Shown: positions 4,228 through 64,000, counted from the stretch's first letter. The stretch is 64,000 bases of DNA from Deltaproteobacteria bacterium (GCA_016875195.1 VGRY01000007.1:1-64000); one strand, 5' to 3'. The notes: generated by a model from the sequence alone, not told the origin. Translations and numbers: made by a program.

Positions 4228-4995
4228 ATGAAGATTAAGGTGCTGGGGTGTTCGGGGGCGGAGTTCCCGGGACGAAAGCCATCTGGTTTTCTTCTGGATG
4301 GTAAGATTCTGTTCGATGCGGGAAGTCTGACCAAAGCGCTGGATATCCGTGGACAGAGGAAGGTCGAGTACATCTTCATCACCCATGCCCATCTTGATCA
4401 TGTCATTGGCATTCCATTTCTTCTGGACAATATGATCGTCAGCAATATGTGGCATAGGGTCAACATCATCGGCATCCCTCATGTAGTGAAGACGATTAGA
4501 AAAAATATTCTGAACAATTCGATCTGGCCTGACTTCACCGCTATTCCAGATTTGGGTAATGGAGTTGTCAGGTTTATCAGTTTGAACCCGGAACATACGT
4601 TGGAGACCAACGGGTACATGGTCACTCCCTATAAGGTTCGCCACTCCGTTCCGGCGGCCGGATATCTTATTGAAGATGGAAAAGGGAAAAAGGTTTTTTA
4701 TACGGGCGACACAGGTCCAACAAGTTCAACCTGGAAGCAGCTAACGGGCAAAAAGATAGACTGCCTGATCATTGAGGTTTCATTCCCGGAAAAGATGAAG
4801 GACTTGGCCATCAAAACAGGGCATCTGACTCCGGGACTCTTAAAGAAAGAGATTGAAAAGATCGACCCACCCCCCCGGAGAATCTATATCACCCACCTCA
4901 AGCCCCAGTATTTCAAGACTATCCAATCAGAGATCAAAAGACTCCGGATTAAAAACCTTCAATTACTCAGGGATGGAGAAGTCTTTCGAATATGA
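4228..4995 (+). CDS. MBL-fold metallo-hydrolase, class II cyclic-nucleotide phosphodiesterase-like
   Basis: The 255-residue protein begins MKIKVLGCSGAEFPG, a strand-loop start shared by RNase Z and class II cAMP phosphodiesterases. The zinc motif THAHLDHVIG is at about residues 52-61, a second His in RHSVPAAGY near 140, an Asp in YTGDTGPT near 159, and a final His in ITHLKPQ near 226. Length and motif order fit a dinuclear-zinc phosphodiesterase of the cpdP/PDE type better than the longer RNase Z. The substrate cannot be read from sequence. A GGAG-type site precedes ATG 4228, and a promoter-like pair lies just upstream. It is transcribed towards the minus-strand phosphate cluster, so it is probably a single-gene unit. 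Confidence 0.75.
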   Translation: MKIKVLGCSGAEFPGRKPSGFLLDGKILFDAGSLTKALDIRGQRKVEYIFITHAHLDHVIGIPFLLDNMIVSNMWHRVNIIGIPHVVKTIRKNILNNSIWPDFTAIPDLGNGVVRFISLNPEHTLETNGYMVTPYKVRHSVPAAGYLIEDGKGKKVFYTGDTGPTSSTWKQLTGKKIDCLIIEVSFPEKMKDLAIKTGHLTPGLLKKEIEKIDPPPRRIYITHLKPQYFKTIQSEIKRLRIKNLQLLRDGEVFRI

Positions 4996-5082
4996 AGGCT
5001 TTTATGAAACGTGGCCAGGATGTCAATGAGGAGGCTGATTCTGGTTCTACGGGAGAATTCCATTGTTCTAATCCGACTGGTT

Positions 5083-5424
5083 TCAATCAAATAAGGTGTC
5101 TCTACGGGATCGTTTCTTTTGCGAATGGATCTTCTTTTCCTCCAGCCTTTTCTCCTTCACCTTTAAAGGAACCAATGTCGGCAAACGTCTCTTTTTCGGA
5201 CGGTTCAATTTTATCAGAGCTTTTTGAAGTCTCTCAAGAGCCAGCTTAAGGTTTTGAGATTGAAATCGATGTTCCGTTGCCGTCACGGTGATGCCGGATA
5301 ATGGGTGGCGCAACCTGATGGCGGTTTCAACTTTGTTCTTTCTCTGTCCACCCGGACCGCTCGAACGGAAGGTCTCGATAATGGCCTGCTTCTTAAGGGC
5401 TTCAAGGTCGGTATCGTATTTCAT
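5083..5424 (-). CDS. Release-factor-like peptidyl-tRNA hydrolase (GGQ protein)
   Basis: The 113-residue protein has the GGQ loop of class I release factors at residues 22-28 (SSGPGGQ, followed by RKNKVETAIRL). In that family the Gln positions water for peptidyl-tRNA hydrolysis on the ribosome. There is no codon-recognition domain. The C-terminal third is very basic (PKKRRLP, KKRSRRDT), as in ArfB-like ribosome-rescue factors, which use a basic tail to sense empty mRNA channels. A role in rescue of stalled ribosomes is therefore likely but not proven. It lies downstream of phoU on the same strand, separated by a 156-base hairpin-rich spacer, so it may be only loosely coupled to the phosphate genes. 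Confidence 0.75.
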   Translation of the reverse strand: MKYDTDLEALKKQAIIETFRSSGPGGQRKNKVETAIRLRHPLSGITVTATEHRFQSQNLKLALERLQKALIKLNRPKKRRLPTLVPLKVKEKRLEEKKIHSQKKRSRRDTLFD

Positions 5425-5449
5425 TGATAGTGCTTAACTCCTGTTATAA

Positions 5450-5580
5450 GGTAACTGTTTAAACTCTAAACACTAAACTCTAAATCCTAAACAAATCCAA
5501 AATCTCAAACTCAAAAGTATACACTATTATAGTTTTGTGTTTTGTACATTTGAGTTTGTTTAGAGTTTAGAGTTTTAAGT
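5450..5580. repeat. Intergenic inverted repeat of iterated CTAAAC / GTTTAG words
   Basis: The left arm repeats words such as AAACTCTAAACACTAAACTCTAAATCC, and the right arm carries the complementary GAGTTTAGAGTTTTAAGTTTAGG just before and into the end of phoU. The arms can fold into an imperfect AT-rich hairpin of more than 20 pairs. It may act as a transcript end between phoU and the GGQ gene, or be one of the word-repeat hairpins scattered through this window. Confidence 0.6.
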
Positions 5581-6264
5581 TTAGGGTTTTTCCTCAGCTT
5601 TGGCATCTGCATGATGCTTGATGACCAGGGCATCGACCATGAAGATCACATCTTCAGCAATATTGGTCGCATGGTCTGCAATTCGTTCGAGACACCGGCT
5701 GACGATCATGAGATGAACCGCTCTTGTAATCGTCTTCTGATCGGACATCATATAAGTCAGGAGTTCTCTGAAGACCTGGTCATTGAGCCCATCCACCAGA
5801 TCATCCCTTTCACAGACCGAACGGGCCAACTTGACGTCCTTGTTAACAAAGGCATCGAGTACATCTTTCACCATCGATTGAGCGATTTCGGCCATCCGGG
5901 GTAAATCAATGTACGGTTTAAGCTGAGGTTCCTGATTCAAAGAGAGGGCACGCTCTGCAATGTTGACCGCCTGATCACCCATCCGCTCAAGGTCCGTGAT
6001 GATCTTCATGGCTGAGGTGATGAAGCGAAGGTCCACGGCCATCGGCTGCCTCAAGGCCAAAAGCTTCAGGCACATCTTATCGATCACGAGCTCCATGTCA
6101 TTGATCTGTCTTTCCCGCTTGAAGATTTCATTTGCAAGATCCGAGTCCCTTTTTACCATCGACAGGACCGCATCGTGGATGGTTCCCTCCACCAGGGTGG
6201 CCATCTTCAAGAGGTTCTCTTTTAGTTCTTCCAGTTCCTTTTGAAATTGAGTCTCTGTGCTCAT
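5581..6264 (-). CDS. phoU: Phosphate signalling/transport regulator PhoU
   Basis: The 227-residue protein is fully alpha helical with two PhoU repeats of three helices each. Recognisable signatures are the repeated metal-binding acidic patterns near residues 65-100 (LKLLALRQPMAVDLRFI, DLERMGDQAVNIAE) and the matching second copy (SRCLERIADHATNIAEDV) near 188-205. PhoU restrains Pst uptake and signals to PhoR-type kinases when phosphate is sufficient. It is the last pst gene, 68 bases after the divergent pstB. A GGGAGAG site precedes ATG 6264. Length is normal for the family. Confidence 0.95.
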   Translation of the reverse strand: MSTETQFQKELEELKENLLKMATLVEGTIHDAVLSMVKRDSDLANEIFKRERQINDMELVIDKMCLKLLALRQPMAVDLRFITSAMKIITDLERMGDQAVNIAERALSLNQEPQLKPYIDLPRMAEIAQSMVKDVLDAFVNKDVKLARSVCERDDLVDGLNDQVFRELLTYMMSDQKTITRAVHLMIVSRCLERIADHATNIAEDVIFMVDALVIKHHADAKAEEKP

Positions 6265-6332
6265 GGTACTCTCCCTTCTCTTCCGCCCCCCACTCTCTCC
6301 CCCATAGGGAGATGGAAAGGGTGAGGGGAATT

Positions 6333-7094
6333 TTATCCAAACCGTCCAGTAATGTAGTCTTCGGTTCGCTGATCTTTCGGACTGGTAAAGAGTTGATAGG
6401 TCGGTCCTTCCTCGATCAATTCGCTATTTAAAAAGAAACCACAGCGATCTGCCACGCGGGATGCCTGCTGGATGTTATGAGGAACGAGGATGATGGTATA
6501 TTCCTTCTTGAGCCGTGTGAGTGTCTCCTCGATGCTGGTTGTGGAGATGGGGTCCAGACCGGAACAGGGTTCATCGAGAAGAAGGACTTCGGGTTCCAAG
6601 GCCAGGATCCTTGCGATACAGAGACGCTGCTGTTGTCCCCCGGAAAGACGGAGGGCGGAGGTCTGAAGGCGGTCTTTCACTTCCTCCCAAAGGACAGCGG
6701 ATCGCAGTGATTTTTCAACGGTTTCGTCCAGCAGTCCCTTCTGTGTCGTCCCTCTCAATCTCGGACCGTAAACCACATTATCATAGATGGACATCGGCAG
6801 GGGAATAGGCAAATCGAAAACGATTCCCACCCTGCGCCTCAACTGAGTGAGGCTCTGTTTCGGGTCATAGATGTCATCTCCATCCAGAAGGATCGTTCCG
6901 GTATGGCTCGATCCATAAACCAGATCGGTCAGTCGGTTAAGACTTTTCAACAGGGTGGTCTTACCGCTTCGCGCAGGACCGAAGATGGCAAATATCTCGT
7001 TGGCCCGGATCGAGAGATTAACCATTTTTAAAGCCTGGTGGGAATCGTAATAGAAGCTGAATTCCCAGACGATAATCTTATTCTGTGGCGACAT
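6333..7094 (-). CDS. Second phosphate ABC transporter ATP-binding protein, PstB paralogue
   Basis: A 253-residue ABC ATPase next to pstA. Walker A is GPARSGKTT (residues 38-46), signature LSGGQQQR near 149, Walker B VLLLDEPCSGLDP near 170, and the H-loop His lies in LVPHNIQQA near 205. The Q-loop, VFQ in typical PstB and in the other copy here, reads VFDLPIPLP, so the conserved Gln is replaced by Asp. That residue normally links ATP hydrolysis to the membrane subunits. The gene starts 10 bases after pstA and so is co-transcribed. It may serve as a partner in a heterodimer with the canonical PstB at 9914-10687, or couple to a different regulator. Transporter assignment is from context. Confidence 0.85.
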   Translation of the reverse strand: MSPQNKIIVWEFSFYYDSHQALKMVNLSIRANEIFAIFGPARSGKTTLLKSLNRLTDLVYGSSHTGTILLDGDDIYDPKQSLTQLRRRVGIVFDLPIPLPMSIYDNVVYGPRLRGTTQKGLLDETVEKSLRSAVLWEEVKDRLQTSALRLSGGQQQRLCIARILALEPEVLLLDEPCSGLDPISTTSIEETLTRLKKEYTIILVPHNIQQASRVADRCGFFLNSELIEEGPTYQLFTSPKDQRTEDYITGRFG

Positions 7095-7947: not shown

Positions 7948-8798
7948 GCGGTCCTCCTTCTCGAAAGAACAAGGGCCAAAGAGTTTAACAGCATAATGAT
8001 CAGAAAGAGGACGACACCCGTGGCAAAGAGGGCCTGGCGATGATCCCCTATGGCATATCCCATCTCGATCCCGATATTTGTAGTCAATGTTCGCGCCGAA
8101 TCGAGGAAAGAAGAGGGCATCTTCACCGCATTGCCAAGAATCATGATCATTGCCATTGTTTCTCCCAGAGCGCGCCCCATCCCGAGGATGATGCTCGCCA
8201 CGATCCCCGACCGTGCAGCCGGGATAAGGACCCGCCAGATGGTCTCCCAGTGTGTGGCTCCAAGGGCGAGGGCCCCTGCCTTATAGGAGGGAGGAAGGGC
8301 TTTGATCGAGTCTTCTGAGATGCTGATGATGGTCGGAAGAATCATGATGCTCAAAATGAGAGAACCGGATAAGATGCTCAGTCCCGGACCTCCCAAAAAG
8401 TTCCGTACGAGAGGTACAAGGACGATCAACCCCCAGAACCCATAAATGACTGATGGAATTCCTGCCAGGACCTGAATGCCTGACCTCAGGATCATCCCGG
8501 CCCAGGGAGGGGTCCATTCGGAGAGAAAGACGGAACATGCCAACCCGAGAGGAATCCCAAGAAGAAGGGCTCCGAAAGTAACCCAGAAAGACCCCACGAT
8601 CATGGGCAAGATTCCAAAGGAACCCTGGCTCGGGACCCACCGCTGGCCCAGGAGGAATGATTTGGGCCCGATCTTCCATATCAATGGAAGGCCCTCGCCA
8701 AAGATGAAAAAAGCGATGAGGGCCAGAATGGAAATCGAGGAAAAAGCGATCAGGAGAAGAATTTTTTCAATAAACTTTTCTTTAAGTTCCACTCTCAT
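7944..8798 (-). CDS. pstC: Phosphate ABC transporter permease PstC
   Basis: The 284-residue membrane protein has a first transmembrane helix at about residues 10-33. PstC hallmarks include GIPSVIYGFWGL near 115 and the coupling loop GALALGATHWETIWRVLIP near 175-195. GRALGETMAMIMILGN near 208-223 is typical of PstC. It pairs with PstA. The start overlaps the end of pstS by four bases, and the stop overlaps the start of pstA by four bases, so pstS, pstC and pstA are tightly coupled. Length is slightly short for the family but complete at both ends. Confidence 0.93.
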   Translation of the reverse strand: MRVELKEKFIEKILLLIAFSSISILALIAFFIFGEGLPLIWKIGPKSFLLGQRWVPSQGSFGILPMIVGSFWVTFGALLLGIPLGLACSVFLSEWTPPWAGMILRSGIQVLAGIPSVIYGFWGLIVLVPLVRNFLGGPGLSILSGSLILSIMILPTIISISEDSIKALPPSYKAGALALGATHWETIWRVLIPAARSGIVASIILGMGRALGETMAMIMILGNAVKMPSSFLDSARTLTTNIGIEMGYAIGDHRQALFATGVVLFLIIMLLNSLALVLSRRRTA

Positions 8799-9613
8799 CC
8801 CCCGGAAGATTTGCTGATCATTGGAATAAGGCCTTCCGTTGAGAGAAGACGTTGCGCCTCAGGGCTCATCACAAAATCCAGAAAAGCTTTTGCCTCTCCT
8901 GAGGGCTCCTCACGCATCACAAAGAGGAAAGGCCGAACCAGTTGATATCTGCCCGTTTGAATATTCTCCAAAGCGGGCTCTACCCCGGAAATTTTCAGGG
9001 CTCTTACTCGTTCATTTACGATTCCGAGGGAGATGTATCCGATGGCATAGGGATCTCCTGTCACGACCTGGCGAATGGCGCCGTTGGAGTCCTGAACAAG
9101 CGCTTCAAGAGCAATCTCCTCTTTTCCCATCACCATTTTCTGGAATGCCTCCCTGGTTCCGGATCCCTCTTCCCTGGTGACCAGGATGATCGGTCTCTCC
9201 TTTCCCCCAACCTCTTTCCAGTTTCTTATCTTCCCGGAATAGATCTCCCTCACCTGAACAAGAGTGAGATCCCGAACAGGGTTATTCGGATTGACGATGA
9301 TGGCGATCGCATCCTGGGCAATTATCACGGAATAGAGGTCCTGCTCTTTTGAAATCAGATGACGGGAGGACATCCCGATATGGGCCGCTCCGGTCCTGAC
9401 CGCCTGAATGCCCGCGGTCGAGCCCCCTCCCTGGACGTAAATGTGAGATCGCGGGCGATGATGCATATATTCTTCGGCCAACAGTTCGGCAAAAGGCTCG
9501 ACGGAGGTGGATCCGGCTACCGTAATGTCCGCCTTGGACCGATGACAACCCACCGTTAAAAGGAATGGGAGCAGCAAAAGGAAACATAATAGGTGAGAAG
9601 CTTTTATGTGCAT
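8795..9613 (-). CDS. pstS: Phosphate-binding lipoprotein PstS
   Basis: I start the gene at ATG 9613, giving MHIKASHLLCFLLLLPFLLT followed by VGC, a lipoprotein signal with Cys at about residue 23. A longer frame to 9679 exists, but its extra residues (NWNLFGVWDLE) come from an intergenic word repeat. The mature protein is a periplasmic binding protein of the PstS family: ITVAGSTSVEPFAE at the start of the binding lobe, GSGTREAF for phosphate contacts, and IGYISLGIV. It captures phosphate outside the membrane and delivers it to PstCA. It is 273 residues, typical for the short PstS type in this phylum. A 300-base repeat-filled gap separates it from the upstream pstB. Confidence 0.9.
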   Translation of the reverse strand: MHIKASHLLCFLLLLPFLLTVGCHRSKADITVAGSTSVEPFAELLAEEYMHHRPRSHIYVQGGGSTAGIQAVRTGAAHIGMSSRHLISKEQDLYSVIIAQDAIAIIVNPNNPVRDLTLVQVREIYSGKIRNWKEVGGKERPIILVTREEGSGTREAFQKMVMGKEEIALEALVQDSNGAIRQVVTGDPYAIGYISLGIVNERVRALKISGVEPALENIQTGRYQLVRPFLFVMREEPSGEAKAFLDFVMSPEAQRLLSTEGLIPMISKSSGG

Positions 9614-60158: not shown

Positions 60159-60466
60159 GAGCCTCCAACTATTAGAATACACTCCTTTTTCAACCTTGTC
60201 ATGAAAGGTTAGGCCATGTTAAAATTAATTTGTTAATTTAATTTTTTGAAAAAAAGAGATTTTTGAGTTAATGGATCAAAAGAATCATCATAAAATCCCC
60301 CTTAATCCCCCTTTGCCTGTCTTTGACAGGGAAAAGATTACCAAAGGGGGAACCCCTTTTGCCTCCCTTTGGCAAATAGGGAGGTTGGGAGGGATTTTAT
60401 AAAGTTTTTTTCAAACCGCTAAAGTATTAAAATTAATAAATTAATGAACAAAGAAAGGTGCTCGTC
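60159..60466. repeat. Gene-free spacer with a CCCCCTTAATCCCCC hairpin element
   Basis: At about 60288-60404, AAAATCCCCCTTAATCCCCC and GGAGGGATTTTATAAAG form ends of an inverted repeat enclosing TTGCCTGTCTTTGACAGGGAA and CCTCCCTTTGGCAAATAGGG, which pair within. It divides the gmk-rpoZ-HD run from the MoxR cluster. A TTAATTT-rich stretch on either side may carry the cluster's promoter. Confidence 0.7.
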
Positions 60467-61804
60467 GTGGAAAAAAACGGATATCAGAAGCAGGTAATGA
60501 CCCTCTATCGCTTTATCAGCGATCATCTCTATTTCAATCGGCCGGATATTGAAGTTAAAGGCGAGACCTATAACTCTGTCATCCTCTTCAGTCTGTTGAC
60601 TGGCCTGCTCAAAGGGAAAGAACTGATTATCGGAGAACCAGGATTAGGCAAAACGACCTCTGCTGAATTTATCTGCTCACTGATCTATCAATTTCCGTTG
60701 GGGGTGATCTGGGGCAGTGAAGTTTCAGGCCATCCGGAGCAGACCGAGGAAAAGATCATTGGCAGACCGGACCTAGGAAAACTGAACCGGGGCGAGGAGG
60801 ATGTCGTGTGGACCAATTTTGCACAGGTCCCCGTTAAGATCGTGGATGAAATAAACCGTCTTCCAGAGACGAAACAGAGCATGATTCTCGATGGAGTGGA
60901 TAGGGGCAACTGGGAATATCTGAATGAGATGATCATCAACGATGAATACTGTCTGTTTGCCACTGCCAATTATCAGGACGGAGGGACGAACACGATCATC
61001 GCTCCTTTGATCGACCGGTTCGATGTCATTGTAGAGTCAAGATATCCAGGTCCCAACCTCTCCTTTCTCATAGGAAAATCACGCAGGAAAGAACAGGTTC
61101 TGAGACATCCCAAATATGAGAAGGCTCTCCATCGTATTCTGAAATCAAAGGTCGCCTACGAGAAAAAAATTCCGAAATTGGAGGAGGTCTGCGACGCCTT
61201 CGGAGAATATGTTGAAGAAACAACGGGGATAAAACCTTTGAGGAGGGAAGATCGCAACCATATCCGAACCGAAATAGAAAGCCTCGAATTAGATCTCGAT
61301 GCCAGCGCCTTTACGCGGATGGTATTGGCTGAACTTTCATTCTGCGACCGTTACGGACAGAAAAGAATCGTAGAGAATTGCGAAGAGGGCTGTCATTATA
61401 CAGGATATCTCTGCCGTCAGATTAAAAATTGCGCCTCGAACCGCCTTCCGACCTCCATTAAACTGTTTGCCCAGGGGCTGGCCTGGTTATCGGGAGACTC
61501 CGAAATCGATATCGAACATGTGAAGGCCATCATGCCGTTTACCTTTTCGCATCGTATCCAGTGGAAAGACGAGGTCATCTCACAAAAAGAGAGGGCGAAA
61601 CGGGATGACCCCTTTCAGATCTTTCTTGCCAAGGAAGCAGTCAAAACGGTTTCCCAGAGATACCGGGAACAGAGTGATCATCTGAAAGATGCACTTGCCT
61701 TAGGATCGAAAATCTTTCAGGGTGAATCCTTGGAACCCCTCGAAGGGGATCATCCGATTTATGCCGAAATCAAGAAAGATCTTCTCCGCAGAAGAAATCA
61801 GTGA
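60467..61804 (+). CDS. MoxR-type AAA+ ATPase with Cys-rich insertion
   Basis: I choose GTG 60467, with GAAAGG nine bases upstream; GTG 60458 is in frame. The 445-residue protein has Walker A GEPGLGKTT at residues 56-64, a Walker B VKIVDEINRLP near 124, a sensor ATANYQDGGTNTI near 164 and an arginine-finger region PLIDRFDVI near 179. Unusual is a stretch near residue 291-321 holding five cysteines spaced C-x11-C-x3-C-x6-C-x5-C, which might bind a metal or Fe-S cluster. MoxR ATPases work with VWA proteins to insert metals or remodel enzymes. The partner VWA gene is at 62573. Confidence 0.85.
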   Translation: MEKNGYQKQVMTLYRFISDHLYFNRPDIEVKGETYNSVILFSLLTGLLKGKELIIGEPGLGKTTSAEFICSLIYQFPLGVIWGSEVSGHPEQTEEKIIGRPDLGKLNRGEEDVVWTNFAQVPVKIVDEINRLPETKQSMILDGVDRGNWEYLNEMIINDEYCLFATANYQDGGTNTIIAPLIDRFDVIVESRYPGPNLSFLIGKSRRKEQVLRHPKYEKALHRILKSKVAYEKKIPKLEEVCDAFGEYVEETTGIKPLRREDRNHIRTEIESLELDLDASAFTRMVLAELSFCDRYGQKRIVENCEEGCHYTGYLCRQIKNCASNRLPTSIKLFAQGLAWLSGDSEIDIEHVKAIMPFTFSHRIQWKDEVISQKERAKRDDPFQIFLAKEAVKTVSQRYREQSDHLKDALALGSKIFQGESLEPLEGDHPIYAEIKKDLLRRRNQ

Positions 61805-62565
61805 TGAAAAACGGCGATTTAAAGAAAAAAAGTTTCCACCCCCCTGTGTCAAAGCCGAACACTTTCTCGAATCCTTTTGAAGAATTCAGGACGTTCCATT
61901 TCCGCAAAGAAGAAATCCCTTTGGACCGGATTGTCCAGTCAGCCGAAGTGGTCATGGATCAGATTCGGCTCGGGTACGAGAAGCTTCTGGAAGAGGAAGC
62001 AAAAGAATTGGTCTGGATGGTTCAGTATAACACGATCATCAAGGCCTATGAGGTGGCAGAGAAATATATTAAAGAGATCGATTATTCAGCGGAGGATATC
62101 GAGGATTTCTGCTTTGCCCTGGAAAACACCCAGAAGATTCCCTATCTCATTCCCGGGCCTGCAGGAATCTATATCTCCGCATTGTGCAATTATGCGAAAG
62201 AAGAGGAGATCGTCCTGAAGCTCTCCGAGTTGAAGACGGAGATCAATCTCATCGGGTTTCGCCTTCCTAAAGGGAAACGGCTTATGGTGGAAGGAGATAC
62301 AGGCGATTTTACTGGCATCGGTCTGGAAGGCGGAGAGATGGTGATTGAGGGGAGCTCAAAAAACTGGACCGGTGCAGGAATGCGATCTGGAAAGATCTTA
62401 GTCAAGAAGAACATCGGTCTCCACACCGGAGAGTGGATGATGGGTGGAGAGATCTATGTGGGAGGAAGGGTAAGGGGACTCGGAAATATCGTCGAAGGAA
62501 AGGTCTTTGAGAGGGAGAAGCTGGTTTATCCGGGAAAAGCTCGAAATCCCAACATCTATTATTGA
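61804..62565 (+). CDS. GXGXG beta-helix protein (FwdC/GltB-like C-terminus)
   Basis: The start ATG 61804 shares a base with the ATPase stop (TGATG). The 253-residue protein has a helical N-terminal half with no match I know, and from about residue 158 a GXGXG repeat region (VEGDTGDFTGIGLEGGEMVIEG, then AGMRSGKILVKK, GEWMMGGEIYVGG) as found in formylmethanofuran dehydrogenase subunit C and the end of glutamate synthase. The right-handed beta helix is structural in both. It has none of the catalytic parts of those enzymes. Its place between a MoxR ATPase and a VWA protein is the main clue to function. Confidence 0.75.
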   Translation: MKNGDLKKKSFHPPVSKPNTFSNPFEEFRTFHFRKEEIPLDRIVQSAEVVMDQIRLGYEKLLEEEAKELVWMVQYNTIIKAYEVAEKYIKEIDYSAEDIEDFCFALENTQKIPYLIPGPAGIYISALCNYAKEEEIVLKLSELKTEINLIGFRLPKGKRLMVEGDTGDFTGIGLEGGEMVIEGSSKNWTGAGMRSGKILVKKNIGLHTGEWMMGGEIYVGGRVRGLGNIVEGKVFEREKLVYPGKARNPNIYY

Positions 62566-62572
62566 GTGACTC

Positions 62573-64000
62573 ATGGAAGAAGAAAGACTGCAAGCCATCA
62601 TTGAAGAGATGTGGCCCCGTCTAAAGAGGAAACACCTCTTTCCTGAAATTCCCGTTCCCAAAGTCGGGAAGGTGGTTGATCTTTCAGTTGACGAACAGGG
62701 TATGGATGACTCCGCGGAACGCCGCGTGGGGTTGGAGATGAAAGAGAAACAGATGACCATCAACCCCGCCTTTCTCTCTACCCTGAAAGGAAAGATGACC
62801 GAGGAGAACCTGATCGAAGCGCTTCTCGATCATGGAATTACTCACTATACCTTCTGTCCATGGGATTTTCAGACCCATCTCATGCTCTATGCCGAAGCCA
62901 AAAAAGTGATGGGCGATAAGGAGTCAGCCAAACAGGCTGCTAATTACTTCATCGATGTCATTGCCGATACTCACTGTGTGAAAAAGAGGGCAACCGAGAT
63001 CCCTGAATTACACCGAAACCTCAAAAAGGGAGCGGTTGAGGAGGTTATCGCCTCTCTCTACCAGAAGATCTGGGGAATCGATCTCGGCATCTCGCCCCAA
63101 GGTAAAGAGGAAAAGGGACGTGCTGAGATTGTCCGGAGGCTTGCGAGAATTCCATATCTGGATCGGTCCAGGTGGACCGAAAGTATCCGGAAGTTTACAC
63201 GTTCTCTCAAGCCCCTTCTCCTTTTGGCGCAGCAAGAACAGGAAGCCAGGGGAGGAAAAGGAGATTCGAATCCTCAGGGAGAACATGATATGAATCACTA
63301 CTCCTATGAAGAGATCGATGATGGACTGAGGGAATATGCCCAAAAGACGATGGGCCTTTCAGAATTCAGAGAAGTGGTTGAGGATTTTTCCACTGAGTTG
63401 AAGGAGATGGGTTATGGAATTGAGGGGGGGATGGGAAGGGGGAGAGGAACTCACATTGATGCCGATATCCTTTTCTATATGAAACTGGCAGAGAATTATT
63501 CCATCCCGGTAAAGAGACTTCCTCTCGAAAAAACAGGAACCCTCCACCCCCATTCCCATTCCCCATGGGAGGTTGGAACACCTTTTCAAGATATCGACAT
63601 CTGGACCAGTTTCGGAAAGATCATGCCAGGAATCACACAGACCTGGAAGAAAAAGGAAGGTAAGGGTCGGGGAAAAATTGAGGGGACGCCAGACTGCCTG
63701 ATCATCATCGATTCTTCGGGAAGTATGATCAATCCACGGAAAAGCCTTTCCTATGCGGTCCTTGGGGCAGCCTGTGCAACCAATGCCTATCTGAGGAACA
63801 ATTCAAAAGTGGCGGTCTATAATTTCAGCGACGCTCCCATGGGAGGCCGGGAAATTCTCGATTACACCGAGAATCGGGAGGATATCTACCGGGCACTCTG
63901 TAAATACTTCGGAGGCGGAACCGCATTGGATCTCGAAGATATCATGCCTCTGATTAAAGGAAAAAAAGAACTCGACCTGTTTATCATCACAGACATGAAG
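62573..64000 (+). CDS. VWA-domain protein with HxxxH segment (cut by window edge)
   Basis: The frame is open from ATG 62573 to the window end (476 codons), so it is 3-prime partial. The N-terminal part has an HGITHY segment (His87, His91) and ADTHC near 131-135, which look like the metal site of DUF2201-type predicted metallopeptidases, although the usual H-E-x-x-H Glu is Gly. The VWA domain has the MIDAS motif DSSGSM at residues 380-385, a Thr in GGGTALD near 439 and TDMK at the edge. Such proteins are the usual partners of MoxR ATPases. It starts seven bases after the GXGXG gene. Confidence 0.8.
   Translation, partial: MEEERLQAIIEEMWPRLKRKHLFPEIPVPKVGKVVDLSVDEQGMDDSAERRVGLEMKEKQMTINPAFLSTLKGKMTEENLIEALLDHGITHYTFCPWDFQTHLMLYAEAKKVMGDKESAKQAANYFIDVIADTHCVKKRATEIPELHRNLKKGAVEEVIASLYQKIWGIDLGISPQGKEEKGRAEIVRRLARIPYLDRSRWTESIRKFTRSLKPLLLLAQQEQEARGGKGDSNPQGEHDMNHYSYEEIDDGLREYAQKTMGLSEFREVVEDFSTELKEMGYGIEGGMGRGRGTHIDADILFYMKLAENYSIPVKRLPLEKTGTLHPHSHSPWEVGTPFQDIDIWTSFGKIMPGITQTWKKKEGKGRGKIEGTPDCLIIIDSSGSMINPRKSLSYAVLGAACATNAYLRNNSKVAVYNFSDAPMGGREILDYTENREDIYRALCKYFGGGTALDLEDIMPLIKGKKELDLFIITDMK

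Follow-up and report, generated by a model that had tools for sequence, protein, structure and literature searches.

Three genes at the end of the window

The analyzed window, a 64,000-nucleotide stretch of DNA from Deltaproteobacteria bacterium (GCA_016875195.1, VGRY01000007.1:1-64000), ends with three same-strand open reading frames (ORFs) that encode a MoxR-type AAA+ ATPase, a GXGXG β-helix protein (referred to here as GX), and a VWA protein (Table 1). The MoxR and GX genes overlap by 4 bases (61801 to 61804), and GX is followed after 7 bases by the VWA gene. This spacing, together with the co-occurrence and shared loci of the three families (see below), bears out the view expressed in a preliminary description of this DNA that the three genes form one unit. 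The most likely start of the MoxR gene is the GTG at 60467, ~8 bases past AGAAAGG, and the GTG at 60458 is also in frame; GX (254 amino acids) starts with the GTG at 61801. The VWA gene continues to base 64219 of the contig and encodes 548 amino acids (positions 4574 to 6220 of locus L002). The trio was compared with its relatives, most of them in metagenome-assembled genomes, which are referred to as type A (window-type trios), type B (a divergent second bacterial type), and the archaeal type (a third set).

Judged by its sequence, the ATPase is MoxR-like but divergent. It scores above the Pfam cutoff for AAA_5 (26.6 bits; cutoff, 22 bits) and AAA (24.4 bits) and below that for AAA_3 (PF07726; 14.9 of 27 bits), and its Walker A and Walker B motifs, AAA_5-type core, and adjoining VWA partner are those of a MoxR-like AAA+ protein in the wide sense. 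The type A MoxR sequences form a single clade (Shimodaira-Hasegawa-like approximate likelihood ratio test support, 100). In their alignment (A3; mean column identity, 66%; residues numbered by the 448-amino-acid reading), Cys296, Cys308, Cys312, His313, and Cys325 are invariant and Cys319 is nearly so. The same cluster without Cys325 (C296/C308/C312/H313/C319) recurs in type B and in some archaeal MoxR proteins and is absent from other copies; it could be a site for zinc or an Fe-S cluster.

The score of GX against the Pfam GXGXG family (PF01493) is 25.8 bits, under the cutoff of 32.5, and its match to the FwdC family TIGR03122, with an E value of 5e-17, is also under the curated cutoff (62 of 130.65 bits). 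A GX profile matched PDB chains of FwdC, subunit C of Mo/W formylmethanofuran dehydrogenases, with an E value of 3e-22. In the AlphaFold model (mean predicted local distance difference test score [pLDDT], 84), a loose N-tail is followed by helices up to residue 131 and then by a β-helix with a pLDDT of >90, and a Foldseek search with this model matched FhcC, FwdC, and GltB at a probability of about 1.0 but an E value of 0.02. The model, the FwdC profile match, and the Foldseek result together assign GX to the GXGXG β-helix fold, as seen in FwdC/FhcC and the C-terminal domain of GltB. Unlike these proteins, GX has a shorter β-helix, a helical N-terminal domain and N-tail of its own, and no linkage to Fwd or glutamate synthase genes. 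The N-tail carries an NPFxxF motif whose Asn24, Pro25, Phe26, and Phe29 are invariant across 43 aligned GX proteins; the model is of low confidence around it (pLDDT of about 55 to 63).

The VWA_2 match of the third protein is weak and under the Pfam cutoff (21.4 of 27 bits). Its model (pLDDT, 80) nevertheless matched VWA domains in Foldseek, including that of NorD from the NorQD complex, and the protein contains the DxSxS...T...D residues of the metal ion-dependent adhesion site (MIDAS), which are retained in all 86 aligned VWA proteins (68 of type A, 3 of type B, and 15 archaeal), bar one unresolved X. This gene had been called correctly in the preliminary description, which overlooked a putative degenerate zincin-like domain at the N terminus of its product. 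His87 and His91 are present in 86 of 86 aligned proteins and Asp128 in 85 (the remaining copy has Glu), and all three residues are kept in every one of the 68 type A copies; they map to predicted helices 77 to 93 and 116 to 138. What differs is position 88, which is Gly or Ala in 68 of 68 type A proteins and Glu in all 3 type B and all 15 archaeal ones. With the HEVGH motif of a Muiribacteriota protein (locus L109), HExxH is found in 19 of 19 copies outside type A. The window protein, with HGITH, resembles the HExxH zincins in having a His-x-x-x-His helix followed by an Asp-bearing helix, and has relatives with HExxH, but differs from them in the absence of the catalytic Glu and of any Pfam peptidase match. 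A search of PDB sequences with the VWA profile returned only coiled-coil noise.

Table 1. Positions of the MoxR, GX, and VWA genes and of their sequence features in the window
Feature	Position	Strand	Basis or remark
MoxR-type AAA+ ATPase	60467..61804	+	AAA_5 E 6e-6; alternative start 60458
Walker A GEPGLGKTT, residues 59-67	60632..60658	+	invariant or nearly so in alignment A3
Walker B region VPVKIVDE, residues 124-131	60827..60850	+	D130 and E131 invariant in A3
Cys/His cluster C296, C308, C312-H313, C319, C325, lid region	61343..61432	+	candidate metal site
GX protein: disordered N-tail, helical domain, FwdC-like GXGXG β-helix	61801..62565	+	profile matches, AlphaFold (AF2) model
NPFxxF motif N24 P25 F26, F29, in N-tail	61870..61887	+	proposed docking motif
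GX helical domain, residues 40-131	61918..62193	+	AF2 model; homologous to archaeal array proteins
GX β-helix, residues 136-243, FwdC/FhcC/GltB-like	62206..62529	+	profile, model, Foldseek
VWA protein, putative N-terminal zincin-like domain	62573..64000	+	gene cut by window end
Degenerate zincin motif H87-G-I-T-H91	62831..62845	+	catalytic Glu replaced
D128, putative third metal ligand of zincin-like site	62954..62956	+	85/86 aligned copies
MIDAS DxSxS: D380 S382 S384	63710..63724	+	with T450 at 63920 and D474 at 63992

Conservation of the trio and its genomic neighborhoods

The three genes form a real and ancient unit. All genomes searched contain GX, 10 from the genus and 7 from the remainder of the family, and every one of this family has the operon in one copy and in a syntenic position. 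A search with MoxR as the only query, one genome per species, yielded 79 loci; with the addition of L002 and the removal of the outgroups L109 and L111, these make up 78 bacterial loci, 66 of which contain MoxR, GX, and VWA together. Among the other 12, 7 lie at contig ends and 5 (L086, L087, L097, L106, and L107) are split, and GX is found beside VWA elsewhere in each of the 5 split-locus genomes, which rules out reduced, MoxR-only loci. In a panel of 237 Desulfobacterota genomes searched for all three families, the identical 21 genomes hold each of them, so that the co-occurrence proposed as a check in the preliminary description is confirmed and a chance adjacency of the three genes is excluded. 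In the same panel, genomes G061 and G143 carry type B only. For L087, a Latescibacteria record, 18 of the 64 genomes in its phylum were found to have GX. The GXGXG gene is accordingly part of the unit, and the situation that would have spoken against this, GXGXG next to unrelated genes in relatives, was not encountered. One of the split-locus genomes, G258, has a shortened MoxR ORF (180 amino acids) at its trio locus (L191) and a second, truncated MoxR (369 amino acids, L107) ~2.9 Mb away; decay or a frameshift is possible.

The surroundings of the operon vary by lineage. The flanking genes are DXS, HD, and nusA in the family of the window, Lon in L050 to L055, methylmalonyl-CoA mutase in L083 and L084, and polyamine-type transporters in Latescibacteria. 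Clustering of the flanking ORFs in 80 loci recovered lineage-specific genes only, with no conserved client or further gene, and no enzyme family recurred among the 143 flanking proteins, taken from ~26 loci, that were scanned against Pfam (at most 3 members per family in either scan). As the flanks change with the lineage and no family recurs in them, the operon is self-contained, and its client, if any, is encoded in trans. In the window itself, the MoxR gene is preceded by a gene for an HD-domain-like hydrolase, and the VWA gene is followed on the contig by a DUF4124-like gene, PilZ-like genes, and then rimP-nusA-infB (names assigned by eye); none of these is a plausible client, in agreement with the earlier remark that no client enzyme is visible here.

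Two enzymes were considered as clients and set aside. Formylmethanofuran dehydrogenase, suggested by the GXGXG fold, is represented by a subunit B over the cutoff in 6 of the 237 panel genomes and in none of the 21 that bear the trio. Aldehyde ferredoxin oxidoreductase (AOR) is encoded near the operon in L073, L079, and L108 and is found in 181 of the 237 genomes, including all 21 trio-bearing ones; this is not decisive, because it also occurs in about three-quarters of the trio-less genomes (160 of 216) and only 8 families are involved.

Type B and archaeal relatives

Type B systems occur in G061 and G143, both of family f40, and G026 has one as its second locus. Their gene order is MoxR-VWA-GX, with MoxR split off in G061, and the VWA motif is HHELNHW. 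The window GX matched type B GX at 99.6% in hhalign. The presence of GX together with HExxH in type B and in L111 led us to abandon the idea that the gain of GX explains the loss of the catalytic Glu. Both the type A and the type B system are present in genome G026 (loci on G026:C31 and G026:C138 [L151]). Directly downstream of the type B genes of G143, Ku-like and ATP-dependent DNA-ligase-like ORFs were recognized by eye (L152, 6414 to 8180).

The archaeal relatives come from genomes of ~1 Mb. In the phylum of L111, whose record is labeled “Candidatus Woesearchaeota” and is possibly mis-binned, 33 of the 194 genomes searched had matches, roughly 20 of them strong. The 15 VWA proteins that were read as neighbors or partners of archaeal MoxR all have HExxH. 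These genes lie beside tandem arrays of GX-like proteins, not metalloenzymes: paralogues in which an N-tail and a helical domain precede GXGXG-like repeats form arrays in L111, L203, L204, L206, L208, and L209, and more distant sets in L214, L215, and L210. The window GX aligned with the main archaeal array family at 99.3% in hhalign (E value, 2.5e-20), and its helical domain alone did so at 93% (E value, 2.7e-7), against no more than 0.7% for decoys (shuffled, reversed, and unrelated profiles). The matches of L214 and L215 to the window GX are weaker (66 to 81%), and that between the two archaeal families is not significant.

Within the arrays, the first 20 residues, counted from tail starts that were picked by pattern, show a higher average similarity than the remainder. 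The identity of tails versus bodies is 68% versus 34% in L209 (higher in 15 of 15 pairs) and 100% versus 45% in L210. Some proteins share the tail alone: those encoded at L203 8407 to 9138 and L204 5187 to 5849 have the GKPDEKK N-tail of their neighbors and no GX match, as if it were a transferable tag. Likewise, two L210 genes (5643 to 6548 and 8160 to 9035) that flank an archaeal VWA gene encode proteins with identical first 28 residues, bodies that are 45% identical, and no GX match.

A possible remodeling machine and its alternatives

The reading that we favor, tentatively, is that the operon encodes a ternary MoxR-VWA remodeling machine that acts without cutting, in which GX could be an obligatory third subunit, an adaptor or a brace, and whose client would be encoded elsewhere in the genome; the machine would descend from an ancestor of the protease type. 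In the NorQD complex, a MoxR hexamer grips and twists its VWA partner (PMC13036017). By analogy, the trio MoxR would assemble into a hexamer that holds its VWA partner in the way that NorQ holds NorD, twisting or pulling it at the expense of ATP. The VWA MIDAS and the proteolytically dead, putatively metal-binding zincin-like domain would hold the target; GX would dock through its helical domain and the NPFxxF motif of its N-tail, and its β-helix surface would recruit or brace the target. With the catalytic Glu lost from all type A copies and the putative metal ligands retained, remodeling would proceed without proteolysis.

Several observations weigh against this reading. The Muiribacteriota genome of L109 has MoxR and VWA, and GX was not detected in it; therefore, GX would not be needed in every relative. 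The zincin-like domain is predicted from a motif and a pattern of modeled helices, not from a fold match. No client enzyme is conserved in the operon flanks. Finally, a GX that serves as a substrate would explain the archaeal arrays of tagged proteins just as well.

This last possibility is the main rival to the adaptor role, although we consider it rather unlikely. MoxR-VWA would then read an N-terminal tag and either remodel the β-helix proteins (type A) or cut them (type B and archaea), perhaps switching on or releasing the tagged proteins. Such a role for GX is consistent with the better conservation of N-tails than bodies among the archaeal paralogues of L209 and L210, with the tail-bearing proteins of L203, L204, and L210 that lack a detectable GXGXG body, and with the intact HExxH of every archaeal and type B VWA protein. 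However, the Glu is missing from all 68 type A VWA proteins, making cutting unlikely there; within type A, GX occurs in one copy and strictly accompanies MoxR and VWA, the behavior to be expected of a subunit; and the arrays may owe some of their tail similarity to recent duplication. It is improbable that the trio matures, or inserts metal into, a redox enzyme encoded elsewhere in the manner of CoxDE or NorQD, with GX as a scaffold or client mimic. NorQD and other MoxR-VWA pairs do mature enzymes (PMC13036017), and the invariant MoxR Cys/His cluster, the retained putative metal site of VWA, the similarity of the GX fold to that of FwdC, which belongs to Mo/W enzymes as a subunit, and the ubiquity of AOR in trio-bearing genomes, at a few loci close to the operon, all point the same way. 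Against this stand the frequency of AOR in trio-less genomes, the lack of a conserved enzyme next to the operon, the lack of Fwd subunit B in trio-bearing genomes, and the existence of relatives in ~1-Mb archaeal genomes with GX arrays. On the same grounds (lineage-specific flanks, no Fwd, and GX-like arrays beside the archaeal relatives), the conserved redox or metalloenzyme client expected in the preliminary description is not supported; a redox enzyme was looked for among the neighboring genes of relatives and not found. Of the function proposed there, the adaptor or scaffold role of the GXGXG protein remains plausible, and metal insertion into a redox enzyme does not find support.

The remaining alternative, a conflict or defense system akin to the ternary MoxR-vWA systems with VMAP, in which GX would be a sensor or effector, seems to us quite improbable. 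It would account for the two-component core with a third protein (PMC7159879), the diversifying tandem arrays in archaea, and a weak match of GX to the phage defense candidate PDC-S31 (E value, 7e-4). That match is the only one of GX to a known defense family; PADLOC gave no match for any of the 10 proteins tested (a further GX and 9 proteins from archaea that belong to the arrays or carry the tail), no effector domains were seen, and the universal, single-copy, syntenic operon of the window's family is unlike patchy defense genes.

Four classes of MoxR-vWA ternary systems, with VMAP, iSTAND, FtsH, and β-propeller third components, have been published (eLife 2020, PMC7159879), and GXGXG is not mentioned in that paper. 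The trio shares with them an AAA+ MoxR and vWA core and a dedicated third protein encoded alongside. It differs in that its third protein is a GXGXG β-helix and none of those four components, in the putative zincin-like domain preceding vWA, in the lack of effector domains, and in being, in type A, a vertically kept core set. NorQ-NorD, CbbQ-CbbO, and CoxD-CoxE likewise pair an ATPase of the MoxR class with a VWA protein that has a MIDAS; unlike these, the trio has a third subunit, a MoxR Cys/His cluster, and a predicted zincin-like domain, and, unlike CoxDE and NorQD, it has no client genes alongside. The parallel to CoxD-CoxE drawn earlier is no more than a remote analogy. No description of MoxR with GXGXG was found in the open-license literature searched, in line with the earlier suggestion that this cluster is possibly undescribed.

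On a broader and more doubtful scheme, such trios would be a fifth MoxR-VWA ternary class across archaea and bacteria, derived from an ATP-driven zinc protease for N-tagged GXGXG proteins of archaeal arrays; the protease site would later have been disabled in one bacterial clade, leaving a non-cutting chaperone with a single β-helix subunit. Machines of the MoxR-VWA kind are poorly understood; the trio gives them a third partner whose fold is known and links this family to a putative metallopeptidase-like domain. The HExxH motifs of archaea and type B and the HG/AxxH motifs of type A form a natural series that could show a change from cutting to remodeling. The comparison also gives a first functional handle on fragment-annotated three-gene operons of uncultured Desulfobacterota, Latescibacterota, and related lineages, as well as on the archaeal GX arrays.

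Two other GXGXG domains were noted in genome G000. A 232-amino-acid paralogue (G000:C4:49060-52610; L142, 5061 to 8612) adjoins glutamine-amidotransferase-like and glutamate-synthase-core-like ORFs near an aldehyde dehydrogenase gene, a locus that, by eye, resembles GlxBCD or N-methylglutamate synthase genes. Another GXGXG domain (G000:C6:89900-90112) lies within a 2,533-amino-acid ORF, perhaps a fused glutamate synthase, that is present in most of the searched genomes of the window's family. Upstream of MoxR, the intergenic region contains an imperfect hairpin of ~110 bases (60290 to 60399; AAATCCCCCTTAATCCCCCTTT...GGGAGGGATTTTA) with a folding z-score of -4.1, present as a single copy in the window, which looks like a small mobile or repetitive extragenic palindromic (REP)-type element.

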